Source: Pseudomonadota bacterium (lineage in GTDB: Bacteria > Pseudomonadota > Gammaproteobacteria > Burkholderiales > Burkholderiaceae_C). From it: 62,874 bases of DNA. Numbering within the stretch: the first letter of the stretch is position 1; each line of letters opens with the position of its first letter. A model generated the notes under the pieces. It was not told the origin of the DNA. It saw nothing but the letters and a program-made list of their open reading frames with translations, and ran no database searches. Where the stretch lies: contig JAVHYA010000015.1 of the NCBI GenBank assembly GCA_031119395.1, positions 18,927 through 81,800 of the forward strand, written 5' to 3'. A program made the translations under genes and the position numbers. Below, piece after piece: positions 18,661 through 44,552 of this stretch.

Positions 18661-19917
18661 TCACCATTCGAAGGCGCGCAGGTGCTCGGCGCGCTGCATC
18701 AGGCCCTCGGCGCCCAGGTAGTGGCTGAGCCGGCCCTCGCGCACCTGGGCCAGCGAGCCTTCGAGGTCGTCCAGCAGCGTGGCGCGCGCGGCGTCGAAGA
18801 CGCGCGGCACGTCCTCGCCGCGCGCCTGCAGGGCCTGGCCGATCACGCGCGCGCTGGCCGGGGCGCCGCAGGCCACGCACTGCGCCATGGCGTCGGCGTC
18901 CGGCTGCGCGCCGGCGGCGAGGAGCCGGGTCGTGAGCTCGGGCGCCAGCGCGTGGTCGATGCTGTCCAGGACGTCGGCCGCCACCGGCGCACCGGCGTCG
19001 AGCAACGCCGCCGCGGCCGCCCAGGCGCCGTGGCCCACCGCCAGGTCGACCGCGTTGGCGCTGCCCTGCAGCGGCGCGCCGAGCGCGACGCCGGCGTCCG
19101 CCAGCGCGCGCACCAACGCCGCGTCGTCGGTCTGGACCGCATGGCGCAGCGCAATGTGGGCCAGCCCGGCGTCCTGCGCCAGCGTGCCGGCCTGCAAGGC
19201 GCCGCGCCAGTCGCGCATGGCGCGGCGATAGAAGGCGACCAGCCTGTCGGACAGTTCCAGCGCGAGACCATGCGACTCGTGGCGCTCGTCGAGGTACTCG
19301 AGCAGCGCCTGGCCGGTGAAGTGATCGCCCGTGGGCGCCAGCGGGTCCTCGTCGAGGTGCAGCGCGGCGAAGGCGCCTTCCACGCTGTCGGCGAGGCTGG
19401 CCAGGCTGTCCTCGTGCAGCCGGTGCTGCCAGGCCGCCGGCAGGCCCTTCTTCCAGGCCAGCACGTGGCCGTTGGCGGGATGCAGGGCATCGACGATCAC
19501 GTAGATGCGGTCCAGGTACTCGAAGCCGCCGATGGGCAGGTAGCTCAGCCGGCCGGTCCACGGCACGCCGTCCTCCTCGGCGGCTTCCTGCGCCAGCGCC
19601 AGTTCATGGTCGATCCAGCCCTGCAGGTCGTGGTAGCCGTCGCTGCCGTTCCAGAACAGTTCGCTCCAGCTGATGGCCTCGTCGTTGCCGCCCATGCGCA
19701 GGCGCAGGTCGTAGTCGAGTTGGCCGCCGGCCGTCTCGCGCCACAGCGCCAGCAGGCCCGGCGGCAGCGGCCCGGCGCACAGGGCCTGCACGGCGTCGAT
19801 CTGCGCCTGCGGCATCGGCGGCCGCGCATCGAAGACGACGCGCTGCGCGAAGAGCACGATGCCGTGCGCGCGCAGCGTGGCGCGCTCGTCGGCGGTGAAG
19901 AAATCGTGTGCGTCCAT
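18661..19917 (-). CDS. SMI1/KNR4 (SUKH) domain plus ankyrin-repeat protein
   Basis: A 418-residue cytoplasmic protein. Residues about 25-175 look like a SUKH/SMI1-KNR4 domain: LPPGLLALWRETAGGQL is its signature, followed by GFEYLDRIYV and a Trp-rich patch. Residues about 245-370 contain degenerate ankyrin-like helical pairs (ALRHAVQTDDAALVRALADAG, VDLAVGHGAWAAAAALLDAGA). SUKH proteins are often immunity proteins against contact-dependent toxins, though some are housekeeping regulators. No toxin gene is adjacent, so the role is open. The start at 19917 (MDAHDFFTADE) was taken because the next in-frame starts upstream add an unstructured Arg/Pro stretch. It is a single gene, convergent with the monooxygenase. 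Confidence 0.75.
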   Translation of the reverse strand: MDAHDFFTADERATLRAHGIVLFAQRVVFDARPPMPQAQIDAVQALCAGPLPPGLLALWRETAGGQLDYDLRLRMGGNDEAISWSELFWNGSDGYHDLQGWIDHELALAQEAAEEDGVPWTGRLSYLPIGGFEYLDRIYVIVDALHPANGHVLAWKKGLPAAWQHRLHEDSLASLADSVEGAFAALHLDEDPLAPTGDHFTGQALLEYLDERHESHGLALELSDRLVAFYRRAMRDWRGALQAGTLAQDAGLAHIALRHAVQTDDAALVRALADAGVALGAPLQGSANAVDLAVGHGAWAAAAALLDAGAPVAADVLDSIDHALAPELTTRLLAAGAQPDADAMAQCVACGAPASARVIGQALQARGEDVPRVFDAARATLLDDLEGSLAQVREGRLSHYLGAEGLMQRAEHLRAFEW

Positions 19918-40444: not shown

Positions 40445-41017
40445 TCAGGCGGGCGCGAGCGCACCCGCGCGGGCCAGCGCCTCGTCGACGGTGCACACGG
40501 TGGCGAAGCGGCCCTGCAGCACGGTGGCGGTGCGGGCCTTGATGTCGGCGGCCGCGAGCGGCCGGCCGTCGGGCTGCGTCATGTCGAAGGTGAGCGTGGC
40601 GTCGAGCACGTAGTCGACCTCCCAGCCCAGGTCCGAGGCGTGGCGCGTGGTGGTCTCGCAGCACTGCTCGGTGCGGATGCCGCTCACGATCAGGCGGCCG
40701 ATGCCATGGCGCGTGAGCCAGACCTCGAGCCCGCTGCCCACGAGGGCGCTGTGGCGGTGCTTGACGAAGGTGGCGGCCGCCGCGAAGTCGACCAGGCCGG
40801 CGATGGGCCGCACGAGCCCGGATTCCTCGGCGAAAGGGTTCGAGGCCTCGGCCGGCGCGTCGACATGGAACACGCGCACCACCGGCACGCCGGCGGCCAC
40901 GCAACCCTCGATCAACGCGTTCTGCGCCGCCAGGTAGGCGGGCACATCGTCGGGTCGGAAGTAGGGGCGGTGGCGGAACGACTCCTGGGCGTCGATCACA
41001 ATCAGACAGGTTTTCAT
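40445..41017 (-). CDS. Isochorismatase-family cysteine hydrolase
   Basis: A 190-residue alpha/beta hydrolase. The catalytic triad candidates are Asp in LIVIDAQESF, Lys in FVKHRHSALVGSGLE and Cys in GIRTEQCCETTTRHASDLGWEV. Members hydrolyse N-carbamoyl or amide compounds (nicotinamidase, N-carbamoylsarcosine amidase) or isochorismate; the substrate here is unknown. It is the first gene of a leftward operon with DUF1272, PfpI and GlxA-type genes. A palindrome 60 bases upstream may be its operator. Confidence 0.9.
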   Translation of the reverse strand: MKTCLIVIDAQESFRHRPYFRPDDVPAYLAAQNALIEGCVAAGVPVVRVFHVDAPAEASNPFAEESGLVRPIAGLVDFAAAATFVKHRHSALVGSGLEVWLTRHGIGRLIVSGIRTEQCCETTTRHASDLGWEVDYVLDATLTFDMTQPDGRPLAAADIKARTATVLQGRFATVCTVDEALARAGALAPA

Positions 41018-41077
41018 GGCGGGTGCTCCGGGCATCTGGGTGGGTGGTGCGCCTGATTCTTCTGTACTGGCGGCCGT

Positions 41078-41134: not shown

Positions 41135-42172
41135 CTACCCGAAGCACAGGTCCAGCCGCACGAGCGCGCCGGCGCGGTCGATGCGCTCGGCACGGAAGTA
41201 GTGCCGCCCGCGGTACGCGTCCAGCCGCAGCGGCAGCGCGACCGGGTCGCTCCAGCTGCGCAGCGAGAAGCCGCGCCGCGCCAGGCTCTGCAGCAGCGCG
41301 TCGAGCTCGGCGTCGTTGGGCGCGACGCGCAGGTCGGCGTCCGCCGGGACACCCGAGGCGGGGTCCTGCAGCCAGCGCGCGAAGCTGCCGAAGACCGTGA
41401 AGCGGTGGCCCTCGGCGCGAAGGGCATCCAGCAGCGCGGCGGTGGCGGCCAGATCGACGGTCTCGCGCCGCTTGCGGGCGATGAGGGCGTACTCGTGGCT
41501 GCGGTTGCTGCGCGCGTCCATCGGCGCCGCCGGGCCGACGGCGCGGTCGTAGACGATCACGCGCTCCTCCTCGAGCACGAAAAGGCTGCCCAGGATGCGC
41601 GCGAGGTCGAAGGCCAGCGGCAGCGTGCGATCGCCCAGGCGCAGGTTCTCGGCCATGGCGATGCAGAACCCGCCGTCGGCCAGCACGTCGCGCACGCGGT
41701 GGAACACCTCGCGCAGCCCGGTCAGGTGCGCCTCGTAGGTGGCGCTGCCGTAGAGCTGGTCCGGCGCCGGCTCGCCGCGCCAGCGGCAGCCGAAATAGGG
41801 CACGTTGGTCAGGCACAGGTCGATCGGCGGCATCGCGCCATCGGCCAGCGTGTCGCAGGAGGCCGCGAACACCGTCGGCGGGGCCAGGCCCAGGCGCGCG
41901 AAGCGCTCGCCGATCGTCGCGGCGCGCGCGGCGTCGATCTCGCAGCCGACCGCCTCGCGCCCCTCCAGCCGCGCCGCCAGCAGCGTGCTGCCCAGGCCGG
42001 CGAAGGGGTCGAGCACGCGGCCGCCCGCCGGGCAGAACTGGCGCACGAAGGGGCGCATCTGCGTGACCCAGCCGATGTCGCGCCCCGCCAGGGGATCGCG
42101 CGCGGCGACGTCGGCCGGCAGGGCGTGCTCGGCCGGCTCGGCCGCGAGCCGCATCCAGCTGCGGTCATCCAT
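41135..42172 (-). CDS. DNA-methyltransferase-like protein with nucleotidyltransferase-like C-terminus
   Basis: A 345-residue two-part protein. Residues ~25-235 form a class I SAM methyltransferase: motif I VLDPFAGLGSTLLAARLEG (52-71), acidic GCEID (76-80) and a motif IV-like TNVPYFG (122-128). In N6-adenine/N4-cytosine enzymes motif IV is usually (D/N/S)PPY; here the first Pro is Val. Residues ~240-345 contain VFGSFARW (260-267) and DADLRV (278-283), resembling the GS-x(n)-DxD core of minimal nucleotidyltransferases, with a possible third Asp near 341. No target-recognition domain is obvious. The ATG overlaps the radical SAM stop by eight bases. Target (DNA, RNA or small molecule) is not known. 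Confidence 0.75.
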   Translation of the reverse strand: MDDRSWMRLAAEPAEHALPADVAARDPLAGRDIGWVTQMRPFVRQFCPAGGRVLDPFAGLGSTLLAARLEGREAVGCEIDAARAATIGERFARLGLAPPTVFAASCDTLADGAMPPIDLCLTNVPYFGCRWRGEPAPDQLYGSATYEAHLTGLREVFHRVRDVLADGGFCIAMAENLRLGDRTLPLAFDLARILGSLFVLEEERVIVYDRAVGPAAPMDARSNRSHEYALIARKRRETVDLAATAALLDALRAEGHRFTVFGSFARWLQDPASGVPADADLRVAPNDAELDALLQSLARRGFSLRSWSDPVALPLRLDAYRGRHYFRAERIDRAGALVRLDLCFG

Positions 42173-43295
42173 GCGCGGGCTCCGCGGCGCGGGTGTCGAG
42201 CAGCACGTCGTGGCCCGGCTCCCATCCGGCGCACAGCTGGCCGTTGGCGAAGTAGACGAGCTTGTAGACATCGCCGCTCGCGTGGCGCCGGTGCATGGCG
42301 GCGTAGTCGGAGCGCTCGAACACCACCTGCAGCCCGCCGCGCGTGCGCAGGCGCAGGTTCCAGAAGTAGTAGCCCTCGGTGAGCGACTCGATCTCCCATC
42401 CGGCACGGGTCGCCGCGTCGGCCAGGCAGGCCTGCAGCAGCGCTGCCATCGGCACGCGGGCCGCGCCCAGGTAGCGTGCGGTGGCGTTGTCGCGGTAGCC
42501 CGCGTCCAGTTCGGAGAACTCGCGCAGGATCACCGTGCCCGCGCCGTGCGCGCGCGCCCAGCCGAGGTAGGCCGCCACGTCCTGCGGCGTGCGCACGCCG
42601 CCCTGCTGCAGCAGGCAGACCAGGCGCACCGGGAAGGTGTCGGCAAGCCCCGCCAGCACGCGCTCGAACACGGCCTGTTCGGCGATCGGCTCGCCGGCGC
42701 GAAAGCGCATCAGCGCCTGGTTGGCGGCGCCGTCCTGGTGGTGGCGCGACAGCTCGATCCAGCTGAGCCCGAAGCGCAGCAGCGCGTCGCGCAGCGCCTG
42801 GCCCTGCGGGTGTGCGAAGCCGGCCCCGTTCGAATAGAGCACGCGGTCCTCGGCCACGACCCCGTCGCGCTCGGCCGCCCGCAGCGTGTCCAGCAACTGG
42901 CGCAGCCAGGCGGCGTCGTCGGTGTTTTCCAGCCCCGACAGCGACCACGAGAGCGGCACGCCGCGCAGCGCGGCCAGGGCCCGGCGCAGCCCTGCGAAGT
43001 AGGCGGCGTCGGGCCGCAGGCGCGCGGCCGGCATGCCGCCGCGCGCGGTGCGCAGGTTCTCGGAGCAGAAGGCGCAGCGGGCCGAGCAGGGCCGGCTGGA
43101 GGCATAGGGCGTGAAGGTGATCGGCCGCGCCAGGCGCCAGTCGCGCCCGCCGATGCGCAGCGTGTGCCAGCGGGTGTCGTCATCGGCGTCCGGCGCACGG
43201 TGGACGATCCGCGGCGCGCGGGCCCGCAGGGCGTCGAGCAGGGCGGCCTCGTCGCTCGCCGGCGCCGGGGGGTGGAAGCGCACGGGGGCGTCCAT
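42165..43295 (-). CDS. Radical SAM enzyme paired with the methyltransferase
   Basis: A 376-residue protein with the radical SAM cluster motif CSARCAFC (Cys70, Cys74, Cys77; Cx3Cx2C) in TFTPYASSRPCSARCAFCSENL. The SAM-binding glycine region appears as WSLSGLENTDDAAW (117-130). Further conserved-looking blocks are LYSNGAGFAH, WIELSRHHQDGAANQALMRFRAGE, LVCLLQQGGVRTPQDVAAYLGW and TEGYYFWNLRLRT. I do not recognise a known subfamily such as TYW1, viperin or a SPASM maturase; there is no extra Fe-S Cys cluster. It overlaps the methyltransferase gene by eight bases and starts 16 bases after the AI-2E transporter stop. The reaction is unknown. Confidence 0.8.
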   Translation of the reverse strand: MDAPVRFHPPAPASDEAALLDALRARAPRIVHRAPDADDDTRWHTLRIGGRDWRLARPITFTPYASSRPCSARCAFCSENLRTARGGMPAARLRPDAAYFAGLRRALAALRGVPLSWSLSGLENTDDAAWLRQLLDTLRAAERDGVVAEDRVLYSNGAGFAHPQGQALRDALLRFGLSWIELSRHHQDGAANQALMRFRAGEPIAEQAVFERVLAGLADTFPVRLVCLLQQGGVRTPQDVAAYLGWARAHGAGTVILREFSELDAGYRDNATARYLGAARVPMAALLQACLADAATRAGWEIESLTEGYYFWNLRLRTRGGLQVVFERSDYAAMHRRHASGDVYKLVYFANGQLCAGWEPGHDVLLDTRAAEPAHG

Positions 43296-43311: not shown

Positions 43312-44409
43312 TCAGACCAGCCGGGCGGCCTGCAGCTCTTTCTTGAGGTACGCGTAGAAGAGCGGCGCCGCCACCAGTCCCGCCGGCCCGAACACCGCCT
43401 CGGCCGCGAACATCACGGCCAGCAGCTCCCACACGGCGATGTGCGTGCGGCTGCCCACCACCTTGGCGTTGATGACGTATTCGGCCTTGTGGATCAGGAT
43501 GAGGAAGGCCAGGCAGGCGGCGGCCGTGAGCGGCGACACCGACAGCCCCACCAGCGTGATCACGACGTTGCACAGCAGGTTGCCGACGATCGGGATCAGC
43601 CCGGCCAGGAAGGTGAGCGTGATGAGCGCCGGTGTGTAGGGCAGGCTGAGGTTCCAGACCGGCAGGATGAACAGCAGGAACACGGCCGTCAGCGCCGTGT
43701 TGAAGGTCGCGATCCAGAACTGCGCCGCCACGATCTGCCGGAAGGCCTGGCCGAAGACGCTGATGCGCCGGTGCATCTGCGCGGCCAGCGGCTGGCGCAG
43801 CGCGGGCGGACGCGCCACGGCGGCCAGTCCGCCGACGATCAGGCCCACGTAGGCGAACAGCAGGGCGGTGAGCCAGGCGCGGCCGGCCAGGGCGAGCGAG
43901 CCGGCCTGGGTGCGCAGATAGTTGGCGACCATGTGCTGAACGTCGCCGGCGGCGGCGGGCAGCGAGGCGGCCAGGTCGGGCGGCAGCTTCTCGCGCAGGT
44001 CGAGGATGGTGCGGGCCACGTAGTCGAGCAGCTCGCGGTACTGCTGCGGCGCGTCGACCACGAATTCGCGCGCCTGCGACAGCCCCACGCCCAGCAGGGC
44101 CAGCGGACCCGCCACCACGACCACGATGGTCAGCGCCTGGATCAGGCTCTGGATGCGCGCGGGCAGGCTGCGGCCGGCGGACTGGGGCCAGAAACGCGCG
44201 ATCACGCGCTCGGCCAGCCGGATCACGCCCCGCACGAAGGTCCGCGTGGCGAGGAAACCCACGCACACCGCCAGCAGCCCCACCAGCAGGTGGTTGAGCA
44301 GCATGCCCAGCAAGGCCGTGCCCATCAGCACGTAGCTGGCACCGACGACCCAGCGCGAGGCCGGGGCCTCGTGGGTGGCGGCGGCTGCGGCGGGATCGGT
44401 GGTGCTCAT
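43312..44409 (-). CDS. AI-2E-family transporter (PerM-like)
   Basis: A 365-residue inner-membrane protein with about eight helices. The family region includes FRQIVAAQFWIATFNTALTAVFL, FLAGLIPIVGNLLCNVVITLVGLSVS and LVAAPLFYAYLKKELQAARLV, where the P-GN-L and terminal YAYLKKEL segments are typical of the AI-2E/PerM superfamily. Substrates range from autoinducers to ions; none can be named. Its place next to purM and hda is conserved in betaproteobacteria. The radical SAM gene follows 16 bases downstream on the same strand. Confidence 0.9.
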   Translation of the reverse strand: MSTTDPAAAAATHEAPASRWVVGASYVLMGTALLGMLLNHLLVGLLAVCVGFLATRTFVRGVIRLAERVIARFWPQSAGRSLPARIQSLIQALTIVVVVAGPLALLGVGLSQAREFVVDAPQQYRELLDYVARTILDLREKLPPDLAASLPAAAGDVQHMVANYLRTQAGSLALAGRAWLTALLFAYVGLIVGGLAAVARPPALRQPLAAQMHRRISVFGQAFRQIVAAQFWIATFNTALTAVFLLFILPVWNLSLPYTPALITLTFLAGLIPIVGNLLCNVVITLVGLSVSPLTAAACLAFLILIHKAEYVINAKVVGSRTHIAVWELLAVMFAAEAVFGPAGLVAAPLFYAYLKKELQAARLV

Positions 44410-44460: not shown

Positions 44461-44540
44461 GCGCAAAGGCCAGCGGGGTTCATCCCGAAAAACTTCTGCG
44501 CCCTCTGCGAACCCTCTGCGCCCTCTGCGTTCGGCTGCCC
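44461..44540. repeat. CTCTGCG-type tandem/dyad repeat
   Basis: GCGCAAAGG on the left and CTGCGCCCTCTGCGAACC...CTCTGCGCCCTCTGCG on the right resemble the arms of a decayed dispersed palindrome (GCAAAGG-CGCAGAGG type). It occupies the 143-base gap between purM and the AI-2E gene. Confidence 0.55.
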
Positions 44541-44552
44541 GTATTCCACACG

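Follow-up and report, generated by a model that had tools for sequence, protein, structure and literature searches.

Which partner does a radical S-adenosylmethionine (SAM) protein keep when the genes around it change, and on what kind of substrate would the two act? The question is raised by a locus in a 62,874-nucleotide stretch of DNA (the window), positions 18,927 to 81,800 of contig JAVHYA010000015.1 (assembly GCA_031119395.1), from a Pseudomonadota bacterium of the Burkholderiaceae_C. Here the gene for a radical SAM protein (RSAM) overlaps a gene whose product (MT-NT) joins a methyltransferase (MT) to a nucleotidyltransferase (NT). The original prediction had read the two as a coupled radical SAM and methyltransferase system. 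The conserved core is instead RSAM plus NT, a self-contained, horizontally mobile and rare two-gene enzyme module under selection, and the MT is a lineage-specific add-on. The parts of the locus are as follows:

42165..43295, minus strand: RSAM, radical SAM protein, 376 amino acids (open reading frame)
41135..42172, minus strand: MT-NT, fused methyltransferase-nucleotidyltransferase, 345 amino acids, ATG at 42172 (open reading frame, Pfam, homology)
42165..42172, minus strand: overlap of the RSAM and MT-NT reading frames, exactly 8 bp (open reading frames)
41498..42172, minus strand: MT domain, residues ~1-225, amino-methyltransferase of the N6/N4 class (PF01555)
41138..41497, minus strand: NT domain, residues ~226-345, minimal pol-beta-type nucleotidyltransferase (homology to the standalone Hymenobacter NT)

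The eight-base overlap of two same-strand genes, noted originally, is thus exact, and the DPFAGLGST, NVPY, GSFAR and DADL motifs noted with it are all present in MT-NT at the residues given below.

A scan of an 84,980-species genome collection with two RSAM proteins and two short peptide patterns returned 16 loci, of which nine lie in Hymenobacter; the others belong to Comamonadaceae bacterium ALPHA2B, Xenophilus (three records), Hydrogenophaga palleronii, Burkholderia sp. Ac-20379 and a Lysobacterales metagenome-assembled genome (MAG). Whole-genome searches, which in the large runs scored 6 to 15 candidates per genome, added RSAM members in genomes G663, G959, G748, G1501 and G1503. After the removal of apparent genome copies, recognized by equal identity values, 22 distinct loci were counted; G820, G1511, G1510 and G1502 were treated as duplicates of L017, L016 and L031, and L018 bears the same strain name as L017. 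The locus counts, like the prevalences given below, are lower bounds. The RSAM family so defined spans Proteobacteria and Hymenobacter, and an overlapping NT-encoding gene directly follows RSAM in 21 of the 22 loci, a count biased only so far as the search profile was built from paired members. The NT is fused to the MT in ten loci (the window, L016, L017, L031, L019, L020, L077, L078, L111 and L112; the last two from visual reading) and stands alone in eleven, all Hymenobacter (L013, L022-L030 and L079). The frames overlap by 8 bp in nine of the ten fused loci and by 4 bp in the tenth, the Lysobacterales MAG (L020), as well as in all eleven standalone ones. Overlapping frames in 21 of 22 loci, two phyla and many contexts refute the view that the genes are chance neighbours without joint function, a view to which we give practically no credence; the single locus that speaks for it is a solitary RSAM in Burkholderia sp. 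Ac-20379 (L021, 3-1019). There the contig ends just upstream, truncating that side of the RSAM locus, and the next gene reads as one for a penicillin-binding protein; the case is either a solitary form or a loss.

What the eleven Hymenobacter loci hold is RSAM and NT, and no homologue of this MT beside them. A full-length MT homologue was likewise absent from the eight Hymenobacter genomes searched, which gave two weak fragments, in two genomes. On the Hymenobacter swuensis plasmid pHsw1, an RSAM with 39% identity to that of the window is followed by a gene for a 171-residue protein, which matches MT-NT in its C-terminal part (E 7e-11, 37% over 93 columns) and lacks the methyltransferase. It is because the NT stands alone beside RSAM in these loci that RSAM and NT form the core. 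The reverse search with MT-NT in 369 genomes of the class gave two full-length matches, in the source genome and G663, both beside RSAM, together with two weak MT-only matches; in the other phylum, an NT search found one of 247 genomes, namely the reference genome itself. The idea of a joint system is therefore borne out by counted co-occurrence (21 of 22 distinct loci), whereas the pairing of radical SAM protein with methyltransferase as the functional unit finds no support in the eleven Hymenobacter loci: the conserved RSAM partner is the C-terminal GSFAR...DADL part, not the methyltransferase. The H. swuensis pair itself (L013, 7881-9496) lies on a plasmid typed as mobilizable, whose annotation gives each of the two products no name beyond hypothetical protein.

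All three domains are under purifying selection. Across five proteobacterial loci, dN/dS (the ratio of nonsynonymous to synonymous substitution rates) is 0.25-0.41 for RSAM, 0.26-0.39 for MT and 0.21-0.40 for NT, and across six Hymenobacter loci 0.09-0.20 for RSAM and 0.15-0.36 for NT; these values come from 25 pairs of loci and a simple counting method and are rough with high-G+C codons. RSAM and NT distances correlate with r 0.92 over 19 rows (the 19-row counts leave out L021, L111, L112, L018, G820, G1511, G1510 and G1502). Taken clade by clade, the Spearman coefficient is 0.96 for Proteobacteria (Mantel p 0.0002) and 0.87 for Hymenobacter (Mantel p 0.0001). The RSAM tree separates a proteobacterial clade, which holds the fused members and L021 (support 100/99), from a Hymenobacter clade of standalone members (98/94).

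The mobility of the module is evident from its distribution, for which two flanking genes of the window are needed:

43312..44382, minus strand: AI-2E family transporter, start codon unsettled, ending 16 bp before RSAM and listed for context; one edge of the empty site in G921 (PF01594, synteny)
40445..41035, minus strand: isochorismatase-like gene (a label presumed from the gene's sequence), downstream, the other edge of the empty site (synteny)

With the source genome counted in, RSAM was found at genus level in 7 of 15 genomes, at family level in 3 of 250 and at phylum level in 2 of 299; the order search gave 4 of 300, made up of the source genome and three distant relatives without NT at the locus. 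In the family of the Hymenobacter genome G665, the figure is 6 of 80, reference included. All seven carriers in the genus have MT-NT beside RSAM, behind the transporter gene. In G921, another genome of the genus, the surrounding genes are arranged as in the window, but the transporter and the isochorismatase-like gene have no RSAM/MT-NT pair between them. The site is likewise empty in G959, where the pair sits on a different contig. The G+C content is ~75% for the RSAM/MT-NT pair, compared with 71% for the window. Among plasmids, pHsw1 is the one true member, and two Embleya records carry a distant RSAM only (L014 was tested). No carrier of the pair was found in the viral contig collection, within the reach of the method; two viral contigs match the MT part only, and the phage Dulem virus 40 has a distant RSAM without NT at that locus. 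In a further genome of the same genus (G1501, locus L111), 13 kb of sequence surrounding the pair gave no match to the isochorismatase-like gene, and the PfpI-like gene comes immediately after MT-NT.

The first of the two core proteins was identified as a radical SAM enzyme from its motif and its predicted fold:

43065..43088, minus strand: [4Fe-4S] motif C70-SAR-C74-AF-C77 (CX3CX2C) of RSAM (sequence, alignments)
42927..42938, minus strand: SGLE, RSAM residues 120-123, where GGEP is usual (alignments)

The CX3CX2C motif at Cys70, Cys74 and Cys77, pointed out originally and the one [4Fe-4S] site recognizable in RSAM, is invariant in 16 of 16 aligned proteins and in 19 of 19 of a second, overlapping set. 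Kept in 19 of 19 are C70, C74, C77, S120, G121, E123, C227, R258 and E259. The relatives P0004, L081 and L082 have GGEP, which we take to be the SAM-binding motif, aligned at the SGLE position. The AlphaFold model (mean pLDDT 86.6) predicts a radical SAM fold with a partial (beta/alpha) barrel, whose closest folds are Tes, MoaA, ChlB and viperin. For RSAM and NT alike, a family that does not appear among the structural neighbours listed is not thereby excluded. In sequence searches, RSAM gives zero matches in Pfam, NCBIfam and PADLOC, each searched up to E 1, and in PHROG up to E 0.5, in keeping with the claim that it fits no curated subfamily, and neither the window RSAM nor P0001 matches the radical SAM family PF04055 at E 1. 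Its relatives P0004 and L010, both alignable with RSAM, pass the PF04055 cut-off; the missing match is a detection gap, outweighed by motif and modelled fold. Sequence searches against solved structures gave nothing or chance matches for RSAM, NT and the MT-NT profile A2, so the folds of RSAM and NT rest on prediction. Against a viral structure library, the RSAM model had 22 matches at E <= 0.001 (best 7.1e-12, 15% identity), the named ones mostly phage radical SAM proteins, and no closer kin were found in that library.

These fold neighbours differ from RSAM in several respects. MoaA, the GTP 3',8-cyclase, is close in fold, yet its NCBIfam model does not match RSAM, and the second-cluster cysteines of MoaA and of SPASM-twitch proteins have no invariant counterpart, since C227 is the sole extra invariant cysteine in the 19 sequences. 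Viperin and its prokaryotic relatives (pVip), which synthesize 3'-deoxy-3',4'-didehydronucleoside triphosphates (ddhNTPs) from CTP or UTP, are 12% identical to RSAM, and the NCBIfam model for prokaryotic viperin, NF038283, is unmatched up to E 1; to our knowledge, viperin has no linkage to a nucleotidyltransferase. Additionally, the peptide maturases ChlB, SuiB and SkfB are among the neighbours, which would suit an RSAM acting on a short precursor in the maturation of a ribosomally synthesized and post-translationally modified peptide (RiPP). This is very unlikely, as no NCBIfam model, RiPP maturases included, matches RSAM, an invariant second cysteine cluster is missing, and no conserved adjacent precursor frame of at least 25 residues, read from stop to stop, lies within 1.2 kb on either side across contexts.

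The second core protein carries the residues expected of a pol-beta-type nucleotidyltransferase:

41384..41389, minus strand: G262-S263, within GSFAR, residues 262-266 (alignment)
41333..41341, minus strand: catalytic-type D278-x-D280, within DADL, residues 278-281 (alignment)
41150..41152, minus strand: third Asp, D341, four residues before the end of MT-NT (alignment)

G262, D278, D280 and D341 are kept in 19 of 19 sequences and residues 262-263 are GS or GT throughout (19 of 19), so the signature G[ST] + DxD + third Asp is present in every one. The predicted fold of the standalone Hymenobacter NT resembles TM1012, MenT1, LnuA and ANT(2''), as well as MenT3 and MenT4, and the 50 fold matches listed all belong by title to the nucleotidyltransferase/polymerase superfamily, in which we presume FKRP to have its place. 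The standalone NT has no Pfam or NCBIfam sequence match, with one chance-level Pfam match (E 0.24), and a literature search on DUF6036 found no paper. The earlier description of the second protein as methyltransferase/nucleotidyltransferase-like is thereby given content: an N6/N4-type MT joined to a homologue of a pol-beta-type NT.

The likeness to MenT1, an AbiEii-type tRNA nucleotidyltransferase toxin, introduces an alternative, in which the NT would extend tRNAs as the toxin of a toxin-antitoxin or abortive defence unit, with RSAM controlling it or acting as a second effector. In a C-terminal segment of the standalone NT, the K138 column holds K in 10 of 11 sequences and the D146 column holds D in all 11, and these may correspond to K137 and D152 of MenT1, both of which were mutated in a published study (PMC10435456). 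The patchy, mobile distribution of the pair would also be in keeping with such a role. However, this segment is missing from the fused NT in all eight aligned proteins, the partner is an enzyme, and no constant third gene such as an antitoxin occurs, RSAM, which might itself be the control partner, being the only constant neighbour. Furthermore, PF08843 (AbiEii) is unmatched by the window MT-NT and by P0002, and hhalign against AbiEii is not significant (E 0.031, probability 1.6%). We regard the toxin as unlikely.

The resemblance to LnuA and ANT(2'')-Ia leads to another alternative: the NT would nucleotidylate a small non-nucleotide molecule, antibiotic-like or a signal, and RSAM and MT would alter it further, so that the pair tailors or inactivates it. 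Here, too, the fold is alike without a sequence-level Pfam or NCBIfam match of the standalone NT, and the setting differs, as the NT adjoins RSAM in 21 of 21 NT loci, most of them found through RSAM. We know of no nucleotidyl resistance gene that includes an RSAM, and no recurring neighbour family for transport, resistance or biosynthesis was seen, with 25 of 75 Pfam families listed. A small molecule is possible as a substrate and is our second choice after RNA or a nucleotide.

The genes around the pair bear on these alternatives. Across contexts, no conserved third gene or peptide reading frame stands beside it within 1.2 kb, and flank likeness is limited to a locus or nearby gene shared between kin, plus a few short weak matches. 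The neighbour set comprises 52 proteins that were chosen by hand at 12 loci. Most come from 182 rough gene calls with a minimum length of 90 residues and the rest from annotation or earlier calls; some of the gene calls may be wrong. PADLOC assigned 13 families in this set, each to one member, and while single neighbours match defence models (among them PDC-M37B 1.2e-37, DolB 6.1e-25 and mad2 5e-15), no defence gene recurs. Among the Pfam families listed, only DUF4132 and DUF7737 appear twice. The proposal of self-marking or defence thus gained no positive evidence, with no recurrent defence gene in the 52 neighbours and no restriction partner seen.

The MT domain carries two motifs:

41984..42010, minus strand: MT motif I, DPFAGLGST, residues 55-63 (alignment)
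41795..41806, minus strand: MT motif IV, NVPY, residues 123-126 (alignment)

PF01555 (N6_N4_Mtase) matches MT-NT in two stretches with E 1.4e-15 and 58.3 bits, above the curated cut-off of 26.7, and 2zie gives a local match (E 5.8e-10). The MT nevertheless departs from these DNA methylases in that the best stretch is short (residues 41-86 only, profile positions 171-216), motif I precedes motif IV, and the domain is fused to an NT. Motif I reads DPF.G.G[ST]T and motif IV [NS][VL]PYFG in 8 of 8 aligned fused proteins. The canonical motif IV of the family is (D/N/S)PP(Y/F/W), a pattern that the MT does not show, having [NS][VL]PY in all eight. All of the 25 PADLOC matches listed (of 38) fall inside the MT part and are to MTase models or mad2; among the matches listed, those of PADLOC and PHROG lie within the first 200 residues of MT-NT, and none falls in its last 120 residues.

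Modification or self-marking of DNA bases would find its argument in this domain, which belongs to the N6/N4 DNA-methylase family in Pfam and matches a type II MTase in PADLOC and a DNA methyltransferase in PHROG. Against it, none of the 11 pairs with a standalone NT has the MT beside it, and the MT is only ~225 residues long with no target-recognition domain recognized (none was sought by structure) and has no nuclease partner in sight; nor, within the reach of the method, did the viral contig collection supply a carrier of the pair. DNA marking and classical defence are weak readings because the MT is optional and neither a nuclease, a constant antitoxin nor a recurrent defence neighbour accompanies the pair, and we consider DNA marking to have a slim likelihood. 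The described anti-phage systems of PADLOC-DB 2.0 offer no match to RSAM and match MT-NT only as stated.

On what, then, would RSAM and NT act? The substrate is likely to be universal in cells, because the pair lacks a substrate gene of its own and occurs in many contexts and two phyla, and RNA or a nucleotide is the first choice because RNA and nucleotides are frequent substrates of the groups to which the domains belong. The original proposal of a nucleic acid or nucleotide as the substrate remains plausible. We tentatively infer that the pair most likely modifies RNA (e.g., a tRNA end), a free nucleotide or a nucleotide cofactor. RSAM would make a radical change on the substrate, the NT would transfer a nucleoside monophosphate, and in Proteobacteria the MT would methylate a ring or amide nitrogen.

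Several observations weigh against this assignment. The shared fold does not give a substrate, since LnuA and ANT(2'') act on antibiotics and MenT1 on tRNA, and several of the RSAM fold neighbours act on peptides or lipids. Both SAM-dependent domains have unusual motifs, SGLE for SAM binding in RSAM and NVPY as motif IV in the MT. The fold of the fused NT is carried over by homology from the modelled standalone Hymenobacter NT, whose C-terminal K and D segment it lacks. The correlation of RSAM and NT distances could partly reflect species history, and the Burkholderia RSAM has no NT after it, nor was one found in its genome.

A more specific version of RNA or nucleotide modification, here called 'make and attach', draws on the analogy with viperin: RSAM would alter a cell nucleotide, the NT would move the product to an acceptor, which might be a tRNA end or a protein, and the fused MT of Proteobacteria would cap or tune the product. 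It is improbable as formulated; if true, it would tie nucleotide radical chemistry by overlapping genes to a dedicated transferase.

A radical SAM family invisible to the Pfam, NCBIfam, PADLOC and PHROG models now has a near-constant NT partner, and the Hymenobacter form, RSAM with an NT of ~165 residues, is the smallest system for biochemistry. Should RNA or nucleotides be the substrate, the pair would represent a new nucleotide-modification route; should small molecules be, it would be a new pair of tailoring enzymes. Among the papers listed in the literature searches, no title or abstract start describes the RSAM and NT pair, and a description in further papers is possible.

Some observations concern the surroundings of the pair and its distant relatives. 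In the Lysobacterales MAG (L020, 6517-10132), a NAMPT (nicotinamide phosphoribosyltransferase) gene directly precedes the pair. A distant RSAM cousin of 446 residues (L083, G099 C11, 5942-13232) lies in an NAD/ADP-ribose-like neighbourhood with genes for an aminotransferase-like protein (by likeness to an L014 gene), a methyltransferase, a DSP phosphatase, KptA/Tpt1, a microbial PARG, an NrtR-type NUDIX regulator and an ADP-ribosylglycohydrolase. A link of the pair to NAD was not adopted, as NAD-type neighbours were not seen at the other loci.

Cassettes of two radical SAM genes, coding for ~239-255 and 343-370 residues, were seen in Dulem virus 40 (L015, 6171-8324), in G263 (L081, 6055-9303) and in G131 (L082, 133-3012); the second product is a distant RSAM relative with a normal GGEP. 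The cassette of Dulem virus 40 is followed by a gene annotated as 'NAT SF protein', and the other two lie downstream of an AMP-binding-like gene. Finally, between the transporter gene and purM, the window contains a short REP-like (repetitive extragenic palindromic) repeat at ~44493-44541, for which ~30 matching places, often in facing pairs, are listed in genome G820.

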